The notes under the pieces are model-generated. The model did not search any database and had not been told where the DNA came from. It saw only the letters and a program-made list of their open reading frames with translations. From assembly GCF_008087625.1 (NCBI RefSeq), contig NZ_CP042997.1, forward strand, positions 4,216,001 to 4,280,000: a stretch of 64,000 nt of DNA, read 5' to 3'. Origin of the DNA: Aquisphaera giovannonii. GTDB lineage: Bacteria; Planctomycetota; Planctomycetia; Isosphaerales; Isosphaeraceae. Of the stretch, positions 10,343-16,795 are shown in pieces. Every line of letters starts with the position of its first letter. The stretch's first letter is position 1. The position numbers were made by a program, and so were the translations under genes.

Positions 10343-11164
10343 CGAACCCCCTCGTCGAAACGGCTCCGCGGCCGACGCCCCGCCGGGACCGCCCTCGGCG
10401 TATCCCGCGGCCCGCCTCGGACGACCGGGCGGGCTCTCCCCGGCGCCGGCCCCCGGCATCGTTACCGCGGCAGATGACCGGGTCAACCTCGTGACCCGAA
10501 TCCGGTCGCGGGAAGGGCCGTCGGGACGCGATAGGGCGACGGCGCCCGGCCCCGCACCGCTCGTGATTCGGAGGATGCTATTGCAAGATATTGCTCAATT
10601 GATGGCATGTAAGGATGAATAGGAAAGTTCTTGCTGACGTACGCCTTGGCAGTCGATAGGTATCATGCTAGAGTTGGCCACCCGAGTCGACCGCCGAATT
10701 AAGGAGCGCGGCCTATAGCGGCCCGCAGGAATCTCCCTCCCGGGCTTCACCTCGATCGGGGACGGCGAATCGTCGTCCGCGGCGGAGGCGGGCTGCTGCC
10801 GGGTCGGTTGCGTCCGACTTGCCCCCAGGCCCATCTCTCCCGGGCCGTTACCGCCGCATCAGAGACCCGCCGGCATCACGCCATTTGGAGGTCCTCGCCT
10901 ATGGCAAGGACGTGCCGACCGCGGGCGGCCCGGTCCTCCTCCTGAACCGGTCGATCCGGACCATGACGCGGGAGGAGTTCAAGGCCGCCCCTCGTCCCGC
11001 CGGCGCCCGCGAGGCCGGCCCGGAGCGCGCCGGGAAGAAGTGAGCCGTCCGGCCGCCTCGCCCGGGGCGGCGCCGCGGGCGGCGAATCGGGGCTCCACCG
11101 TGATTCCGCCCGTCCGATCGGTTATCGTTCGGTCGGACGCCCTGATCACATGGAGCCCAATCCC
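10343..11164. other. Intergenic region of about 820 bp
   Basis: It separates a minus-strand gene from the plus-strand sulfatase, so both promoters should lie here. A patch at about 10575-10700 is clearly AT-richer than the surroundings. The only coding-like stretch is a short plus-strand frame ending at 11043, listed separately. No RNA gene is recognised. Confidence 0.5.
10885..11043 (+). CDS. Possible small protein or gene fragment, unknown function
   Basis: From a TTG at 10885 the frame codes for about 52 residues, [16 protein letters not shown] followed by [16 protein letters not shown], and a lysine-rich end. Nearly all codons end in G or C, as in real genes of this window. No good ribosome-binding site or ATG is seen, and the frame upstream to 10819 is not protein-like. 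It could be the tail of a decayed gene or a small gene with a non-ATG start. No family is recognised. Confidence 0.25.
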
Positions 11165-12751
11165 ATGCCTCCCCTCCCGGTGCCCGTCCCCAGCCCGGCG
11201 CGGCGACGCGTCGCGACGTCCCTGCTCATCCCGGCGCTCGTCCTGCTGTCCGCCGCGGCGAGCCCGGCGGCAGCCCCGGCGGGCGGGCCGGCGCGTCGGC
11301 CGAACATCGTCTTCCTCTTCTCCGACGACCACGCCTACCAGGCCATCGGCGCCTATGGCGACCCCCGTCGGCTGGTGGAGACGCCCCAGATCGACCGGCT
11401 GGCGAAGAAGGGGATGCGGTTCGACCGCTGCCTCGTCACCAACTCGATCTGCGGCCCGAGCCGGGCGTGCGTGCTGACGGGCAAGTACAGCCACGCGAAC
11501 GGCTTCTACAACAACACCAACAGCCGGTTCGACGGCTCGCAGGTGACGTTCCCCAAGCTCCTCCAGAGGGCGGGCTACCAGACCGCGATCTTCGGCAAGT
11601 GGCACCTCGTCAGCGAACCGACCGGCTTCGACGCCTGGGAAGTCCTGCCGGGGCAGGGGGTCTATTACAACCCTCCGATGATCAAGGACGGCCGCCGCGT
11701 CAAGCATCAGGGGTACGTCACGGACATCATCACGGACCTCTCGCTCGACTGGCTCGCCCGCCGCGATCGCTCTCGACCGTTCCTGCTGATGTGCCAGCAC
11801 AAGGCGCCGCACCGCGAATGGGAGCCCGCGCCGCGGCACCTCGGCCACGACGGCGACCGCGCCTACCCGCCGCCGCAAACCCTCTTCGACGACTATGCCG
11901 GCCGCGGCCCGGCCGAGCACCGGCAGGACATGACGATCGCCCGCACGATGACCGCGCGGGACCTCAAGCTCACGCCGCCACCCGAGCTCGACGCCGACCA
12001 GCGCAAGGCCTGGGATGCCTACTACGAGCCGCGGAATGAGGCCTTCCGCCGCGCGGCCCCGCAGGGCGAGGACCTCGTCCGATGGAAGTACAATCGCTAC
12101 CTCCACGACTACCTCGGCTGCATCAAGGGCGTGGACGAAGGCGTGGGCCGGCTGCTCGACTACCTGGACCGCGAAGGCCTGGCGGACAACACGATCGTCG
12201 TCTACGCGTCCGACCAGGGCTTCTACCTGGGCGAGCACGGCTGGTTCGACAAGCGCTGGATCTTCGAGGAGTCGCTCCGCACGCCGCTCCTGGTGCGCTG
12301 GCCGGGCGTGACGAGGCCCGGGGCCGTGAACGCCGACATCGTCTCGAACATCGACTTCGCCCCCACGCTGCTGGAGGCGGCCGGGGTGCCGGTGCCCGGA
12401 GAGATCCAGGGCCGCAGCCTCGCCCCGCTGCTGCGCGGGGATACGCCCGCCGACTGGCGGAAGAGCTTCTACTACCACTACTACGAATTCCCCGCCGTGC
12501 ACGACGTGAGGCGCCATTACGGCGTCGTCACCGACCGCTACAAGCTCGTCCACTTCTACGGGTCCGACGTGGACTCCTGGGAGCTTTTCGACCGCCGGGA
12601 GGACCCTCTCGAGCTCCGGGACGTGTTCAAGGACGCGCGGTATGCCCAGGCCCGCAAGGAACTGGAGGCCGAGCTCACGCGGCTGAGGTCGGAGCTCCAC
12701 GTCACGCCCGAGGACCCGCCGGAGACGATGCTGCCGGCGGCTGGTCGGTGA
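11165..12751 (+). CDS. Secreted sulfatase, cysteine type
   Basis: The 528-residue protein starts with a signal sequence ([20 protein letters not shown]) and belongs to the alkaline-phosphatase-like sulfatases. C96-G-P-S-R100 in [18 protein letters not shown] is the site where a formylglycine-generating enzyme turns cysteine into the catalytic formylglycine. The metal-site motif DDH is at 54-56, and [16 protein letters not shown] supplies the later D-Q metal ligands. Family knowledge: it hydrolyses sulfate esters, in planctomycetes usually of algal or animal polysaccharides; the substrate is not evident. The start at 11165 has GGAG nine bases upstream (11152-11155), better than the ATG at 11150. 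The C-terminal domain ([18 protein letters not shown]) is complete. No maturase is seen nearby; the SUMF1-like domain at 28.7 kb belongs to an EgtB-like enzyme. Confidence 0.95.
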
Positions 12752-12862
12752 GCATGGCCGGCGGGCTGATGTCGGGGTAGGCCGAAGTCCACCCGACCGC
12801 AAAACTCCGGCGCCTTCGGGTGCGGCACCCGCTCGACCCCGCGGGCATGACCGCACCGACGA

Positions 12863-13273
12863 TCACCACTGGTCGGGCAGGCAATGCAGGAGCGTGTTGA
12901 GCCGCTTCCGGGCTTCCTCGATCGTCACCGCGGCGGGGGTCGCCTGGTCATCGCGTTCATGCACCAGGAAGTTTCGGTACTCACGGACCTCGTGCACGTC
13001 GTCGCGGACGTCGGTCGAGATGGCCCGGCCCCGCCTGACCCCGGCCGTCCAGTCGATCAAGTTCCTCGTCCGAATCTGGCTTCCAAGATCACCGGTCGTG
13101 CGACGATGATACGAGCGGAGTGTCGTTTCGAACTCGGCCCACATCCGAATCAGGTACGTCGATTCGACGCGTCCGGACGCCGCGACGAGGTCGCGAGGCG
13201 ACGTGTCACGCGGCATCCCGACCCCGTCTCCCTGGATGGAACCGGCGAGATGGGCGACGGCCCTGGGTATCAC
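12863..13273 (-). CDS. HEPN-like domain protein, second gene of a two-gene cassette
   Basis: The 136-residue protein is mostly helical. Its core runs from YLIRMWAEFETTLRSYHRR to REYRNFLVHERDD. R100-NFLV-H105 is the R-x4-6-H motif that forms the RNase site in HEPN proteins, and the preceding DDVHEVREYR and following VTIEEARKRLNTLLH helices fit that fold. Many HEPN proteins are toxins or RNases paired with an antitoxin, others are only structural. The gene sits 50 bp downstream of an uncharacterised 148-residue protein on the same strand, which suggests joint function. The start is uncertain: GTG 13273 (GGGA seven bases upstream) or ATG 13216 (GGAG eleven bases upstream) are both possible, and the first 20 residues look less conserved. 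HEPN assignment is by motif and helix pattern only. Confidence 0.7.
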   Translation of the reverse strand: MIPRAVAHLAGSIQGDGVGMPRDTSPRDLVAASGRVESTYLIRMWAEFETTLRSYHRRTTGDLGSQIRTRNLIDWTAGVRRGRAISTDVRDDVHEVREYRNFLVHERDDQATPAAVTIEEARKRLNTLLHCLPDQW

Positions 13274-13323
13274 CTTGCATTCCCGCTCCGTCCCCCTTGA
13301 CCCGGTCGATGAACGCCTGACGC

Positions 13324-13770
13324 TCAGCCACCGGTCGACATCCCTTCGAGGATCTCGGCCATGGCCCGTTCGTCATAAGGTCGAGGCTCGATCTCCAGGG
13401 CGCCGTGTGTCTCGCCAGGGCCCGGGTGCTTACCGCGGTAGACGACCCAGCGGTCGCCCTCGAAATACAGGCTGGCGATGTCGTCGTAGGCCGGTGCCAG
13501 ATAGAGATCGACCGCACCATCGGCGCCGGGCACGCGGCGGGCCACCGGATTCAGGACGACCTCGATGGCGTCCTTTTCCATCAGTAGTACGGGGGCCTTG
13601 TATTCCCCCAGTTGACGCTCGTTGATGGTCTTCTGGATCCGTCGGGTCCGCCATCCCGACGCCCGCGCCCAGCCTTCGACCTCGCCAACGAGTTTGTCCA
13701 GGCGACTCAGCCATTCCACCTTGACGGCCTCGGGATCATCGAAGACCACTTGAGTGATCCCGGTTGCCAT
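13324..13770 (-). CDS. Uncharacterised 148-residue protein upstream of the HEPN-like gene
   Basis: The product starts MATGITQVVFDDPEAV and continues with an amphipathic helix (WLSRLDKLVGEVEGWARASG), a basic segment (WRTRRIQKTI), and a beta-rich part with VDLYLAPAYDDIASLYF, DRWVVYRG and a short acidic tail. No membrane segment or signal peptide is present, so it should be cytoplasmic. ATG 13770 is preferred to 13824, whose first 18 residues look like untranslated leader. No family is recognised. The tight linkage to the HEPN-like gene suggests an antitoxin, regulator or substrate-binding partner, but the sequence does not show which. The composition is normal for the genome. Confidence 0.75.
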   Translation of the reverse strand: MATGITQVVFDDPEAVKVEWLSRLDKLVGEVEGWARASGWRTRRIQKTINERQLGEYKAPVLLMEKDAIEVVLNPVARRVPGADGAVDLYLAPAYDDIASLYFEGDRWVVYRGKHPGPGETHGALEIEPRPYDERAMAEILEGMSTGG

Positions 13771-13933
13771 CGAAATTCCCCCATCCCCTGGGGCCCAACG
13801 AAACCGATCGTCTTGCCGACCCACAATCTCAGTTTAGCAGGGTGAGGTCGGCTCGTCACCGCGGGCGGCCCTGGGCTCACCGGCATGTAACGGCGAACTC
13901 AGCGATGACGCAGTGGAGGCCGGCGAGGGCCCG

Positions 13934-14965
13934 TCAATCTTCCTCGGCCTTCAACGGCGGGAGGCCGAGTAGCCGCTCGACCTCCTCGGCCGAGACGGCG
14001 AGCCGGCCGAGGACGTGGCGATACATGGTGAAGATCCGGTCGGTGACCTGATCGGCGGCCTCCATGAGGTTGATGACGTCCTCCGCGGCGGGCATCTCCG
14101 GGATGAAGAGGCGGGCGAGAGGGACAGGGCCGTCCTCGTCCTGGATGAAGCTCGCCGTGGTCCGGCCGAGGCTCCGGCGCAGGTCGTCGATCCGGCCCAG
14201 GAGTCGCTGGGCGACGGCGTAGGCGGCCTCGAGGAGGGCTTCTTTCGGCTTCTTCTCGTCCCTGATGCGGAGGACGAGATGGGCGAGGACCCTAATCGAG
14301 CTCATCACGCCCGGGGTCTGGCCCGCGACCTGGGTGGCGAGGAACGCGGCGGTCGGGTAGATCGCGCGCGCTTCGACGCGGCGGGCCGGGCCGCCGGCCC
14401 CGCGTTCGGCCACGTCGTCACGCTCGAGCAGGCCGACCGTCGCCGCCAGCCGTCGCGCCAGGGCCTCTGCGAAGGGCTCCAGCGACGAGATGACGCGACG
14501 CTCGGACTCCCTCCAGCGTGCCACCGCCGCCTCGGCCGCGGCGAGAGTCGGGGTGTCGAGCTCGAACTCCTCGGCCTTGATCTTGAGGCCGGCTCGCAGC
14601 AGGAGCGCGGCCGCCTCGGCCTTCTCCGCACGCGGGTGGACGGTGTTCCATCGGAGCAGCGCCGAGAGGTTCTCCCCGCGCAGGACTTGCATGTCCCGAC
14701 GGGCGTCGATCACCTCCGCCTTGGCCTCGGCGAGATCCTTCGGGGCGGGCGGGTATTCGGCGGGGAGGGGGAGCGGCTGGGTCAACGCCATGGCGTCGAG
14801 GGTGAACTTTTCGAAGGCGATCCCCGCCTGGATGCTGTCCGCTTCGGGCGTCGAAGGCACTGGGATGGACCCGCGGCATTTCGGGCACTTCACCCGGCGG
14901 CCGGCATGCTCCTCGCCCAGATTGAACTTCGAGGTGCACGCGGGGCATTCGACGTCGATCGGCAT
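13934..14965 (-). CDS. Zinc-ribbon protein of unknown function (MJ0042-like N-terminus)
   Basis: The 343-residue protein begins with a CxxC...CxxC zinc ribbon: C7, C10, C27 and C30 in VECPACTSKF and RRVKCPKCRG. Planctomycetes use such N-terminal ribbons widely. Behind a linker rich in proline and charged residues (about 45-75) the rest is alpha-helical (AEAAALLLRAGLKIKAEEF; ERRVISSLEPFAEALARRL) without membrane segments. The role is unknown; a scaffolding or nucleic-acid-binding role would be a guess. ATG 14965 is chosen because GGGAGG lies six bases before it; an ATG at 14986 lacks such a site. The gene is single, facing the plus-strand peptidase gene across about 230 bp. Confidence 0.8.
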   Translation of the reverse strand: MPIDVECPACTSKFNLGEEHAGRRVKCPKCRGSIPVPSTPEADSIQAGIAFEKFTLDAMALTQPLPLPAEYPPAPKDLAEAKAEVIDARRDMQVLRGENLSALLRWNTVHPRAEKAEAAALLLRAGLKIKAEEFELDTPTLAAAEAAVARWRESERRVISSLEPFAEALARRLAATVGLLERDDVAERGAGGPARRVEARAIYPTAAFLATQVAGQTPGVMSSIRVLAHLVLRIRDEKKPKEALLEAAYAVAQRLLGRIDDLRRSLGRTTASFIQDEDGPVPLARLFIPEMPAAEDVINLMEAADQVTDRIFTMYRHVLGRLAVSAEEVERLLGLPPLKAEED

Positions 14966-15196
14966 CGCGAGCCTCCCGGCTTCCATGGATGGGCGTATGA
15001 CCGGGAGGAATATACCACGACGGGTATTGCCGTGCTCATCCGTCCTTCGGCGTGATATGCCGTGCCGAACGGGGGTCTCGCCGCGGGCCCGTCGCGGGCT
15101 TCTCTCTTGCGAGATTCCGCCGCGTCACGCATCGTCTATCTTGCCTGATCGCGATTTCCCGCCTGCATCAACCCGCTATTGAGGCCTACCCCGACG

Positions 15197-16795
15197 ATGA
15201 CCCGCATCCTGAGCGTGCTCGCGACGATGACCATGGTCCTGATCCTGGCGGCGAGGCCGATGAGCCCGGCGTGGGCGCAGGAGCCCCCGGCGAAGCCCCC
15301 GCAGAAGGCGGAGGAGAAGCCGAAGGAGAAGGACGCCGCCAAGGAGAAGGAGGCGCCGAAGAAGGACGCCGGCAAGGGCTCGACCGACGAGGAGCCGGTG
15401 GTGACGCACCACTCGGTCAGGGTCGACGGCAAGGAGCTCAAGTACACGGCGACGGCCGGCCTGATTCCGATCCGGGACGCGAAGGGGGAGACCGAGGCCC
15501 GCATCTTCTTCATGGCGTACCACCTGGACGAGCCTAAAGCGACCTCGCCCCGGCCGGTGCTCTTCAGCTTCAACGGCGGGCCCGGGTCGGCCTCGGTCTG
15601 GCTGCACATCGGCGCGCTCGGCCCGAAGATCGTGCCGGCGCCGGAGGGCCCGACGATCCCCGCGCCGCCGTTCCGCGTCGTGGACAACCCGGCCACCTGG
15701 CTCGACCGGTCGGACCTCGTCTTCATCGACCCGGTCGGCACGGGCTACTCGCGGGCGGCCAAGCCGGAGTTGAACGCGAAGTTCCACTCGCTCAAGGGGG
15801 ACATCGAGTCGGTCGGCGAGTTCGTCCGCATGTACCTCAGCCGGTTCGACCGCTGGGACTCGCCCCTCTACGTCATCGGGGAGAGCTACGGGACCACCCG
15901 CGCGGCCGGGCTGGCGGGGCACCTGATCGAGAAGGGCATCGCCTTCAACGGCGTCATCCTGGTCTCCTGCGCGCTCGACTATCAGGGGTTCGTCTTCACC
16001 GCGGGGAATGACCTGCCGTTCCTGAACTATCTCCCTTCGTATGCGGCCACCGCCTGGTATCACAAGAAGCTGCCGGCGGAGCTCCAGGCCGCGGGGCTGC
16101 CCGCCGTGCTCAGGGAGGCGGAGGCGTTCGTGGACAAGGAATACGCGGGGATCCTCGCCCGCGGAGACCGCCTGAGCGACGCCGAGAAGCATGACGTCGC
16201 CGCGAAGCTGGCGAGGCTCACCGGGCTGGACGCGGCCACCATCGCCGACCACCAGTTGAGGGTCGAGCTCGACGTCTTCCGGAAGGAGCTGCTGAAGGCG
16301 AAGCACCGTTCCATCGGCCGGTTCGACTCGCGCTACGAGGGGATCGAGAACCTCTCGCCGTCCCCGTCCGCGGAGCCGACCACGGACCCGAGCTACTCGG
16401 CGGTCCGCGCCCCGTACACGTCGGCCTTCAACCGGTACATCCGCACCGAGCTCGGCTACAAGACCGACGTGCCCTACTACATCCTGGGCGAGGGCGTGGG
16501 GCGGTGGGAGTTCGACGTGCGGATGGGCTATCCCTCCACGACCGCGGCCCTGAGCGAGGCGCTCACCAAGAACCCGCACATGAAGGTGCTCGTCGCCTCA
16601 GGCTACTACGACCTGGCCACGCCCTATCGCGCCGTGGACCACGCGCTGGCGAGGCTCGGCCTCGACCCGGCGATCCGCGGGAACATCGCCACGGTCACCT
16701 ATGAGGCGGGGCACATGATGTACCTGCACGGCCCCTCGCTGCACAAGATGAAGGCCGACGGCGCGGCGTTCATCGAGGGCTCGCACGCCCCCTGA
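15197..16795 (+). CDS. Secreted S10 family serine carboxypeptidase
   Basis: The 532-residue protein has a signal peptide (about 1-27, ending SPAWAQ) and then a low-complexity Lys/Glu/Pro linker (about 30-66, including KPKEKDAAKEKEAPKKD) before the catalytic domain. The S10 triad is visible: S230 in VIGESYGTTRAAG, an aspartate in VASGYYDLATP near 470, and a histidine in EAGHMMYLHGP near 505. LFSFNGGPGSASVWLH is the family's oxyanion-hole motif. It should remove C-terminal residues from peptides in the periplasm. The start ATG 15197 is preferred to TTG 15179 because the signal peptide begins there. A following lipoprotein gene on the same strand starts 89 bp later. Confidence 0.93.
   Translation: MTRILSVLATMTMVLILAARPMSPAWAQEPPAKPPQKAEEKPKEKDAAKEKEAPKKDAGKGSTDEEPVVTHHSVRVDGKELKYTATAGLIPIRDAKGETEARIFFMAYHLDEPKATSPRPVLFSFNGGPGSASVWLHIGALGPKIVPAPEGPTIPAPPFRVVDNPATWLDRSDLVFIDPVGTGYSRAAKPELNAKFHSLKGDIESVGEFVRMYLSRFDRWDSPLYVIGESYGTTRAAGLAGHLIEKGIAFNGVILVSCALDYQGFVFTAGNDLPFLNYLPSYAATAWYHKKLPAELQAAGLPAVLREAEAFVDKEYAGILARGDRLSDAEKHDVAAKLARLTGLDAATIADHQLRVELDVFRKELLKAKHRSIGRFDSRYEGIENLSPSPSAEPTTDPSYSAVRAPYTSAFNRYIRTELGYKTDVPYYILGEGVGRWEFDVRMGYPSTTAALSEALTKNPHMKVLVASGYYDLATPYRAVDHALARLGLDPAIRGNIATVTYEAGHMMYLHGPSLHKMKADGAAFIEGSHAP

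Follow-up and report, generated by a model that had tools for sequence, protein, structure and literature searches.

A putative toxin–antitoxin gene pair of planctomycetes with a predicted HEPN-fold protein behind a partner of no recognised family

Two small neighbouring genes of a planctomycete genome, here called A and B, are best explained jointly as a translationally coupled chromosomal toxin–antitoxin module that is found almost only in planctomycetes and is gained and lost as a small island in the chromosome, a reading that we hold to be reasonably probable. The module would resemble a type II toxin–antitoxin or an abortive-infection system, in which A is the probable antitoxin and B the predicted HEPN-fold toxin. 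HEPN toxins are widespread, and to our knowledge few kinds of protein are known to restrain them. A partner of an unrelated kind would reveal another way of restraining a HEPN RNase. A full-text search of open-licence papers returned no description of the A–B pair, and the A partner is not described in the excerpts considered of PMC3710099 and PMC8195603.

Gene layout and an apparent frame shift in gene B

The window is the 64,000-nucleotide stretch G000:C1:4216001-4280000 of a 10.5 Mb genome. The pair lies on its minus strand, with gene A first and gene B downstream. Gene A, the putative antitoxin or guard, is an open reading frame of 148 codons at 13324..13770 (coding 13327-13770, stop to 13324). 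A preliminary description of this DNA had reported two adjacent small reading frames on one strand, the upstream one encoding 148 residues of no recognised family, and both statements hold. Profile searches assigned neither A nor B of the window to any Pfam or NCBIfam family, and PADLOC left A unmatched and listed JetD (E 0.025) as its single, weak match to B. An Rfam search of 11000-16000 was empty and so lends no support to an RNA antitoxin, and a scan of 12700-14000 for sigma-70 promoters was likewise empty.

In the HEPN-like frame, a reading frame of 136 residues opens at GTG 13273 (12863..13273, minus strand). The preliminary description had overlooked an apparent frame shift that places the start of B in another frame. 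In the intact relative G025, B starts 8 nt inside A and is read in a single uninterrupted frame. The equivalent place in the window, and thus the expected start of B (13206..13331, minus strand), is marked by a GTG at 13331 in a frame that overlaps the A stop by 8 nt. The frame opened there is similar in its residues to the N-terminus of G025 B and stops after 41 codons. Homology to B resumes in a different frame from ~13294, close to a run of five G at 13292..13296 (minus strand). The main part of gene B, which is HEPN-like by homology and by the fold predicted for the G025 relative, occupies 12863..13294 on the minus strand and aligns to positions 14-151 of the 151 in the B profile (E 7.7e-44). 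Since the B proteins of 26 relatives carry additional N-terminal residues compared to the 136-residue frame, the latter is probably not the natural B protein, and the apparent intergenic gap arises from the shift.

Judged from the sequence, window B thus appears frame-shifted, leaving mainly the antitoxin. Compared to G025, dN/dS amounts to 0.23 for A and 0.19 for the main frame of B, with dS above 1; the shift is therefore either recent or an error. A programmed frame shift is disfavoured, as a single frame encodes B in 42 relatives. The same genome holds a second, intact pair at 5.24 Mb, about 1 Mb from the window copy. An assembly error, which would leave the local pair intact and active and concerns the window copy only, would fit both the proximity of the shift to the G run and the low dN/dS still recorded in the main frame of B. 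Yet the assembly comprises 3 contigs at 99.94% completeness, and seven further loci have a disrupted B beside an intact A, one of them (L076) by apparent deletion, which makes such an error rather unlikely in our estimate.

Pairing and distribution of A and B

The two genes are conserved together. Among 118 relatives, 27 genomes contain A and 19 contain B, and across 397 Planctomycetia genomes A occurs in 64 and B in 61, in a patchy distribution. A lies directly upstream of B on the same strand at 61 of the 64 strong B places in these 397 genomes (E < 1e-12), so that B is not found mostly alone. The three exceptions are G480, where a divergent A lies upstream, G728:C52, where B starts at base 28 of the contig, and the degraded locus G016:C160. 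We treat the latter as degraded because its remnants, a partial A and a partial B (L123, G016:C160:6000-19000), stand in reversed order and are separated by 6.2 kb, in which a frame of 1155 codons without a Pfam match lies. A further 15 weaker B matches are without a recognised A, and all five of these that were inspected (G005, G026, G044:C89, G070, and G633:C451) have an A of a second, diverged clade upstream.

A scan of 84,980 species, which reaches only sequences close to its patterns, yielded 28 loci, of which one is titled Nealsonbacteria and all others bear planctomycete titles; B or a fragment of B follows A in 27 of the 28. In a sample taken evenly over the phylum, B occurs in 4 of 392 genomes. 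The contig titled Candidatus Nealsonbacteria (L076, JABMRB010000029.1) carries A together with a B that is missing its N-terminal half, and represents either a transfer or a mis-binned planctomycete contig.

In all 26 pairs in which the B start is fixed, B begins before A ends, with an overlap of 4-20 nt. Moreover, distances among A proteins correlate with those among B proteins over 44 distinct pairs (r 0.56; none of 2000 permutations exceeded 0.38), and both genes are under purifying selection, with dS mostly near 1.

Gene B is predicted to adopt a HEPN fold

The preliminary description had read R-NFLV-H in the downstream protein as the R-x4-H motif of HEPN RNases. In the window, R100-N-F-L-V-H105 is encoded at 12959..12976 on the minus strand (R codon 12976-12974, H codon 12961-12959). 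By itself, a bare R....H arises in 52% of 20,000 shuffles of the window B protein, and R[NDH]xxxH in 8%. The motif is nevertheless meaningful, because R..RN...H is kept in all 44 distinct B proteins from the 44 distinct pairs and because the fold is predicted to be HEPN-like; R-x4-H does not vary among these 44 homologues. T58 is likewise kept in 44 of 44, a glutamate in helix 2 in 43, and E...[RK] is seen in that region in 36, window B having E-x3-R within EFETTLR. HEPN proteins are marked by R-x4-6-H with a polar residue following the arginine, often with an acidic E-x3-[KR] (excerpts of PMC3710099). B combines R-x4-6-H and the polar residue with a second acidic residue and, as predicted for the G025 relative, an all-helical fold.

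The AF2 model of G025 B is all-helical with a pLDDT of 92. Alignment of this model with VIA-align ranked HepT chains top (Z 10.8 over 127 residues, rmsd 3.9), and 13 of the top 17 rows are HepT or HEPN proteins by title or belong to the SO_3166 pair. The remaining four rows, without such titles, are HI0074, YutE, a Thermus protein, and Dfer_2879, of which we take HI0074 and YutE to be of the HEPN type. Metavinculin follows in row 18 with a Z of 7.2. Foldseek alone gave zero significant matches for the same model. Since helical bundles often attain middling Z scores, as VIA-align itself warns, and Foldseek was not significant, fold and invariant residues were weighed jointly. Profile matches point in a similar direction: DUF4145 is matched weakly by 12 of 27 B members (best 4.2e-4) and HepT-like families by 3 of 27, and the B paralogue in the window's own genome matches the NCBIfam HepT model at 6.3e-5, under its cut-off. 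From the predicted fold, the invariant R-N-x3-H, and the near-invariant glutamate, we infer that B is probably a HEPN-fold endoribonuclease.

Gene A has a predicted fold without a close known relative

The AF2 model of A (pLDDT 88.1) consists of a helix, seven strands, and a helix. Foldseek against the PDB and viral models gave no match at E 0.001, and a PDB sequence search returned nothing meaningful. The best VIA row is chain 7 of 2fug (Z 8.2 over 114 residues, rmsd 4.6), which we take to be the frataxin-like Nqo15; we do not claim this likeness, because the score is within the range that the tool calls common. A is thus without known antitoxin homology in profile searches of 29 members and without a significant fold match.

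Two kinds of N-terminal extension of ~70-90 residues, which look unrelated to each other, occur on A in different subfamilies, one in L002, L014, L018, L023, and L046, the other in L027, L056, and L061, with zero Pfam matches.

Comparison with known two-gene systems

HEPN genes that follow an MNT or a ParA-like partner have already been described, and the upstream position is the usual place of the antitoxin (excerpts of PMC3710099). The pair shares with HepT/MntA two small overlapping or adjacent genes, an upstream partner, and a HEPN fold with R-x4-H, and among known structures the predicted fold of B is nearest to HepT. In HepT, the tyrosine of RX4HXY receives AMP (excerpts of PMC7641770). 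In contrast, a tyrosine at H+2 is absent from all 44 distinct B proteins, and no more than 2 of 44 A proteins contain even a loosened nucleotidyltransferase motif (GSX10DXD). Profile searches of window A and 29 A members returned no nucleotidyltransferase family, and neither the predicted topology of A nor its fold matches indicate one. Membership in the HepT/MntA systems (type VII) is therefore rejected on both signature motifs. As H+2 lacks the tyrosine and GSX10DXD is this rare, modification of B in the manner of HepT/MntA also appears unlikely.

The pair likewise resembles the dyad of HEPN (MAE_18760) and a ParA/Soj-like ATPase in having the partner upstream of the HEPN gene (excerpts of PMC3710099), whereas window A is without an ATPase family and just one of 29 members gives a marginal ATPase match (E 0.089). 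Despite the weak DUF4145 matches, B differs from DUF4145 HEPN proteins by standing alone at ~150 residues, and L006 B scores 13.3 bits compared to a curated cut-off of 23.1. With type II toxin–antitoxin systems, the pair has in common the small two-gene operon, in which the putative antitoxin would come first, and its accessory character, being gained and lost among close relatives (an empty site in one sister species; presence in 61 of 397 genomes).

An empty site and changing neighbours

In one sister species (G002), the genes for a sulfatase (86% protein identity) and a zinc-ribbon protein (77%) adjoin with ~35 bp between their aligned ends, and the pair is absent. Compared to this site, the window holds ~1.19 kb extra (12725..13918, no strand), inside which only A and B are recognised. 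The locus is not core: in addition to the empty site, its neighbours differ among relatives, with the G025 pair beside a ThiF/rhodanese gene, the G044 pair between genes for a peptidase S15 and an isocitrate-type dehydrogenase, and the paralogue in the window's own genome beside a DacZ-like gene. Up to four B matches occur per genome.

The preliminary description had raised the prospect of mobile or defence-associated loci, for which the searches gave no counterpart. A has zero matches in plasmids, phages, and viral contigs, G025 B has zero in plasmids, and a B of the second clade has zero in plasmids or phages; phage or plasmid cargo is therefore rejected. No convincing terminal repeats of a transposon were found at the locus. 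Neither a recurrent neighbour nor a third gene emerged among the 105 nearest reading frames at 28 loci (L068-L095), where, among the matches listed, any PADLOC model occurs in at most one frame and any Pfam family in at most two, in a scan without background control in which some frames may be spurious in GC-rich DNA. Defence models (mads_3, mads_6, PD-T4-6, RtcR) are matched by isolated neighbours, and as no PADLOC model recurs among those listed, a defence island is not supported. One RtcR (CARF-AAA-HTH) and one RlaP of the RNA repair polymerase-beta family are present among these neighbours.

Decay affects B

The distinct loci comprise 42 intact pairs and nine in which an intact A accompanies a broken or partial B. 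Eight of the nine remain after dropping L095 at a contig end, and zero loci have a broken A beside an intact B (sign test for 8:0, 0.008), the limits being asymmetrical in that the laxer start limit of A, applied to B, drops the window locus and gives 7:0. L095, L021, and L028 (contig ends), L005, L030, and L009/L036 stand outside this count. L005 was rejected as a weak unrelated match (E 1.01), and L030 is not a broken A but an A of the second clade, followed by a B that terminates within the motif. Sequencing errors in metagenomes should hit A and B alike. A is kept and B was not found in L091, 1.3 kb from a contig end, and in G681, where the only long downstream frames carry no HEPN motif.

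Proposed mode of action and alternative explanations

The preliminary description had likened the genes to a toxin–antitoxin or defence cassette, which is supported by their pairing, order, overlap, and the predicted HEPN fold. In the mechanism that we propose, A would be translated first from a message common to both genes. B would then dimerise, by analogy to HepT, cut cellular RNA, and halt growth, unless A binds and blocks it, presumably without a recognisable enzyme motif. Stress or phage attack could conceivably free B. The module exists in several clades with the order of A before the HEPN gene held constant, and in the window copy the frame-shifted B would leave mainly the antitoxin.

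The same pair might instead serve abortive-infection defence, with B as the effector and A as a sensor that keeps B in check and lets it go on infection, not as a labile antitoxin. The two kinds of N-terminal extension on A would suit a sensing module, and HEPN effectors are common in defence (excerpts of PMC3710099); however, A matches zero PADLOC models and defence neighbours are not recurrent, each PADLOC model being matched by at most one of the 105 neighbouring frames, and we consider such a role distinctly unlikely. A domesticated complex for RNA processing or regulation, with A as an essential subunit of B or as its specificity factor, is very improbable in our view. Strict pairing, overlap, and correlated divergence would fit a two-subunit enzyme equally well, and every place found is chromosomal or in assembled contigs, yet such a complex is at odds with the patchy occurrence (61 of 397 genomes), the empty site, the multiple B copies in single genomes, and the loss of B where A is kept. 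The toxin–antitoxin module thus remains our preferred reading, and the pair offers a direct two-gene assay.

Diverged clades

In the second, diverged clade, the downstream gene starts at -4 in 15 of 16 loci and at +6 in the other, and R-N-x3-H is present in 15 of 16, the remaining one stopping within the motif. A third clade adjoins weak A matches; its pair at 9.23 Mb in the window's own genome has RHWVGH. We tentatively propose, as a possibility falling a little short of an even chance, that A founds a new alpha/beta antitoxin family with interchangeable N-terminal modules, which would neutralise at least three diverged HEPN clades non-enzymatically and form a largely planctomycete-specific toxin–antitoxin or immune superfamily. 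The relatives in three clades permit tests of specificity.

At L203 (G010:C5:2769000-2771800), a HEPN gene of the second clade has a TAG inside R-N-x3-H, and the adjacent A gene has no stop. The pair of the third clade in the window's own genome (L191, G000:C1:9231500-9234500, at ~9.232-9.233 Mb) is the third A–HEPN pair of that genome. It has relatives in G002, G020, and G024, the copy in G020 carrying an internal TAG.
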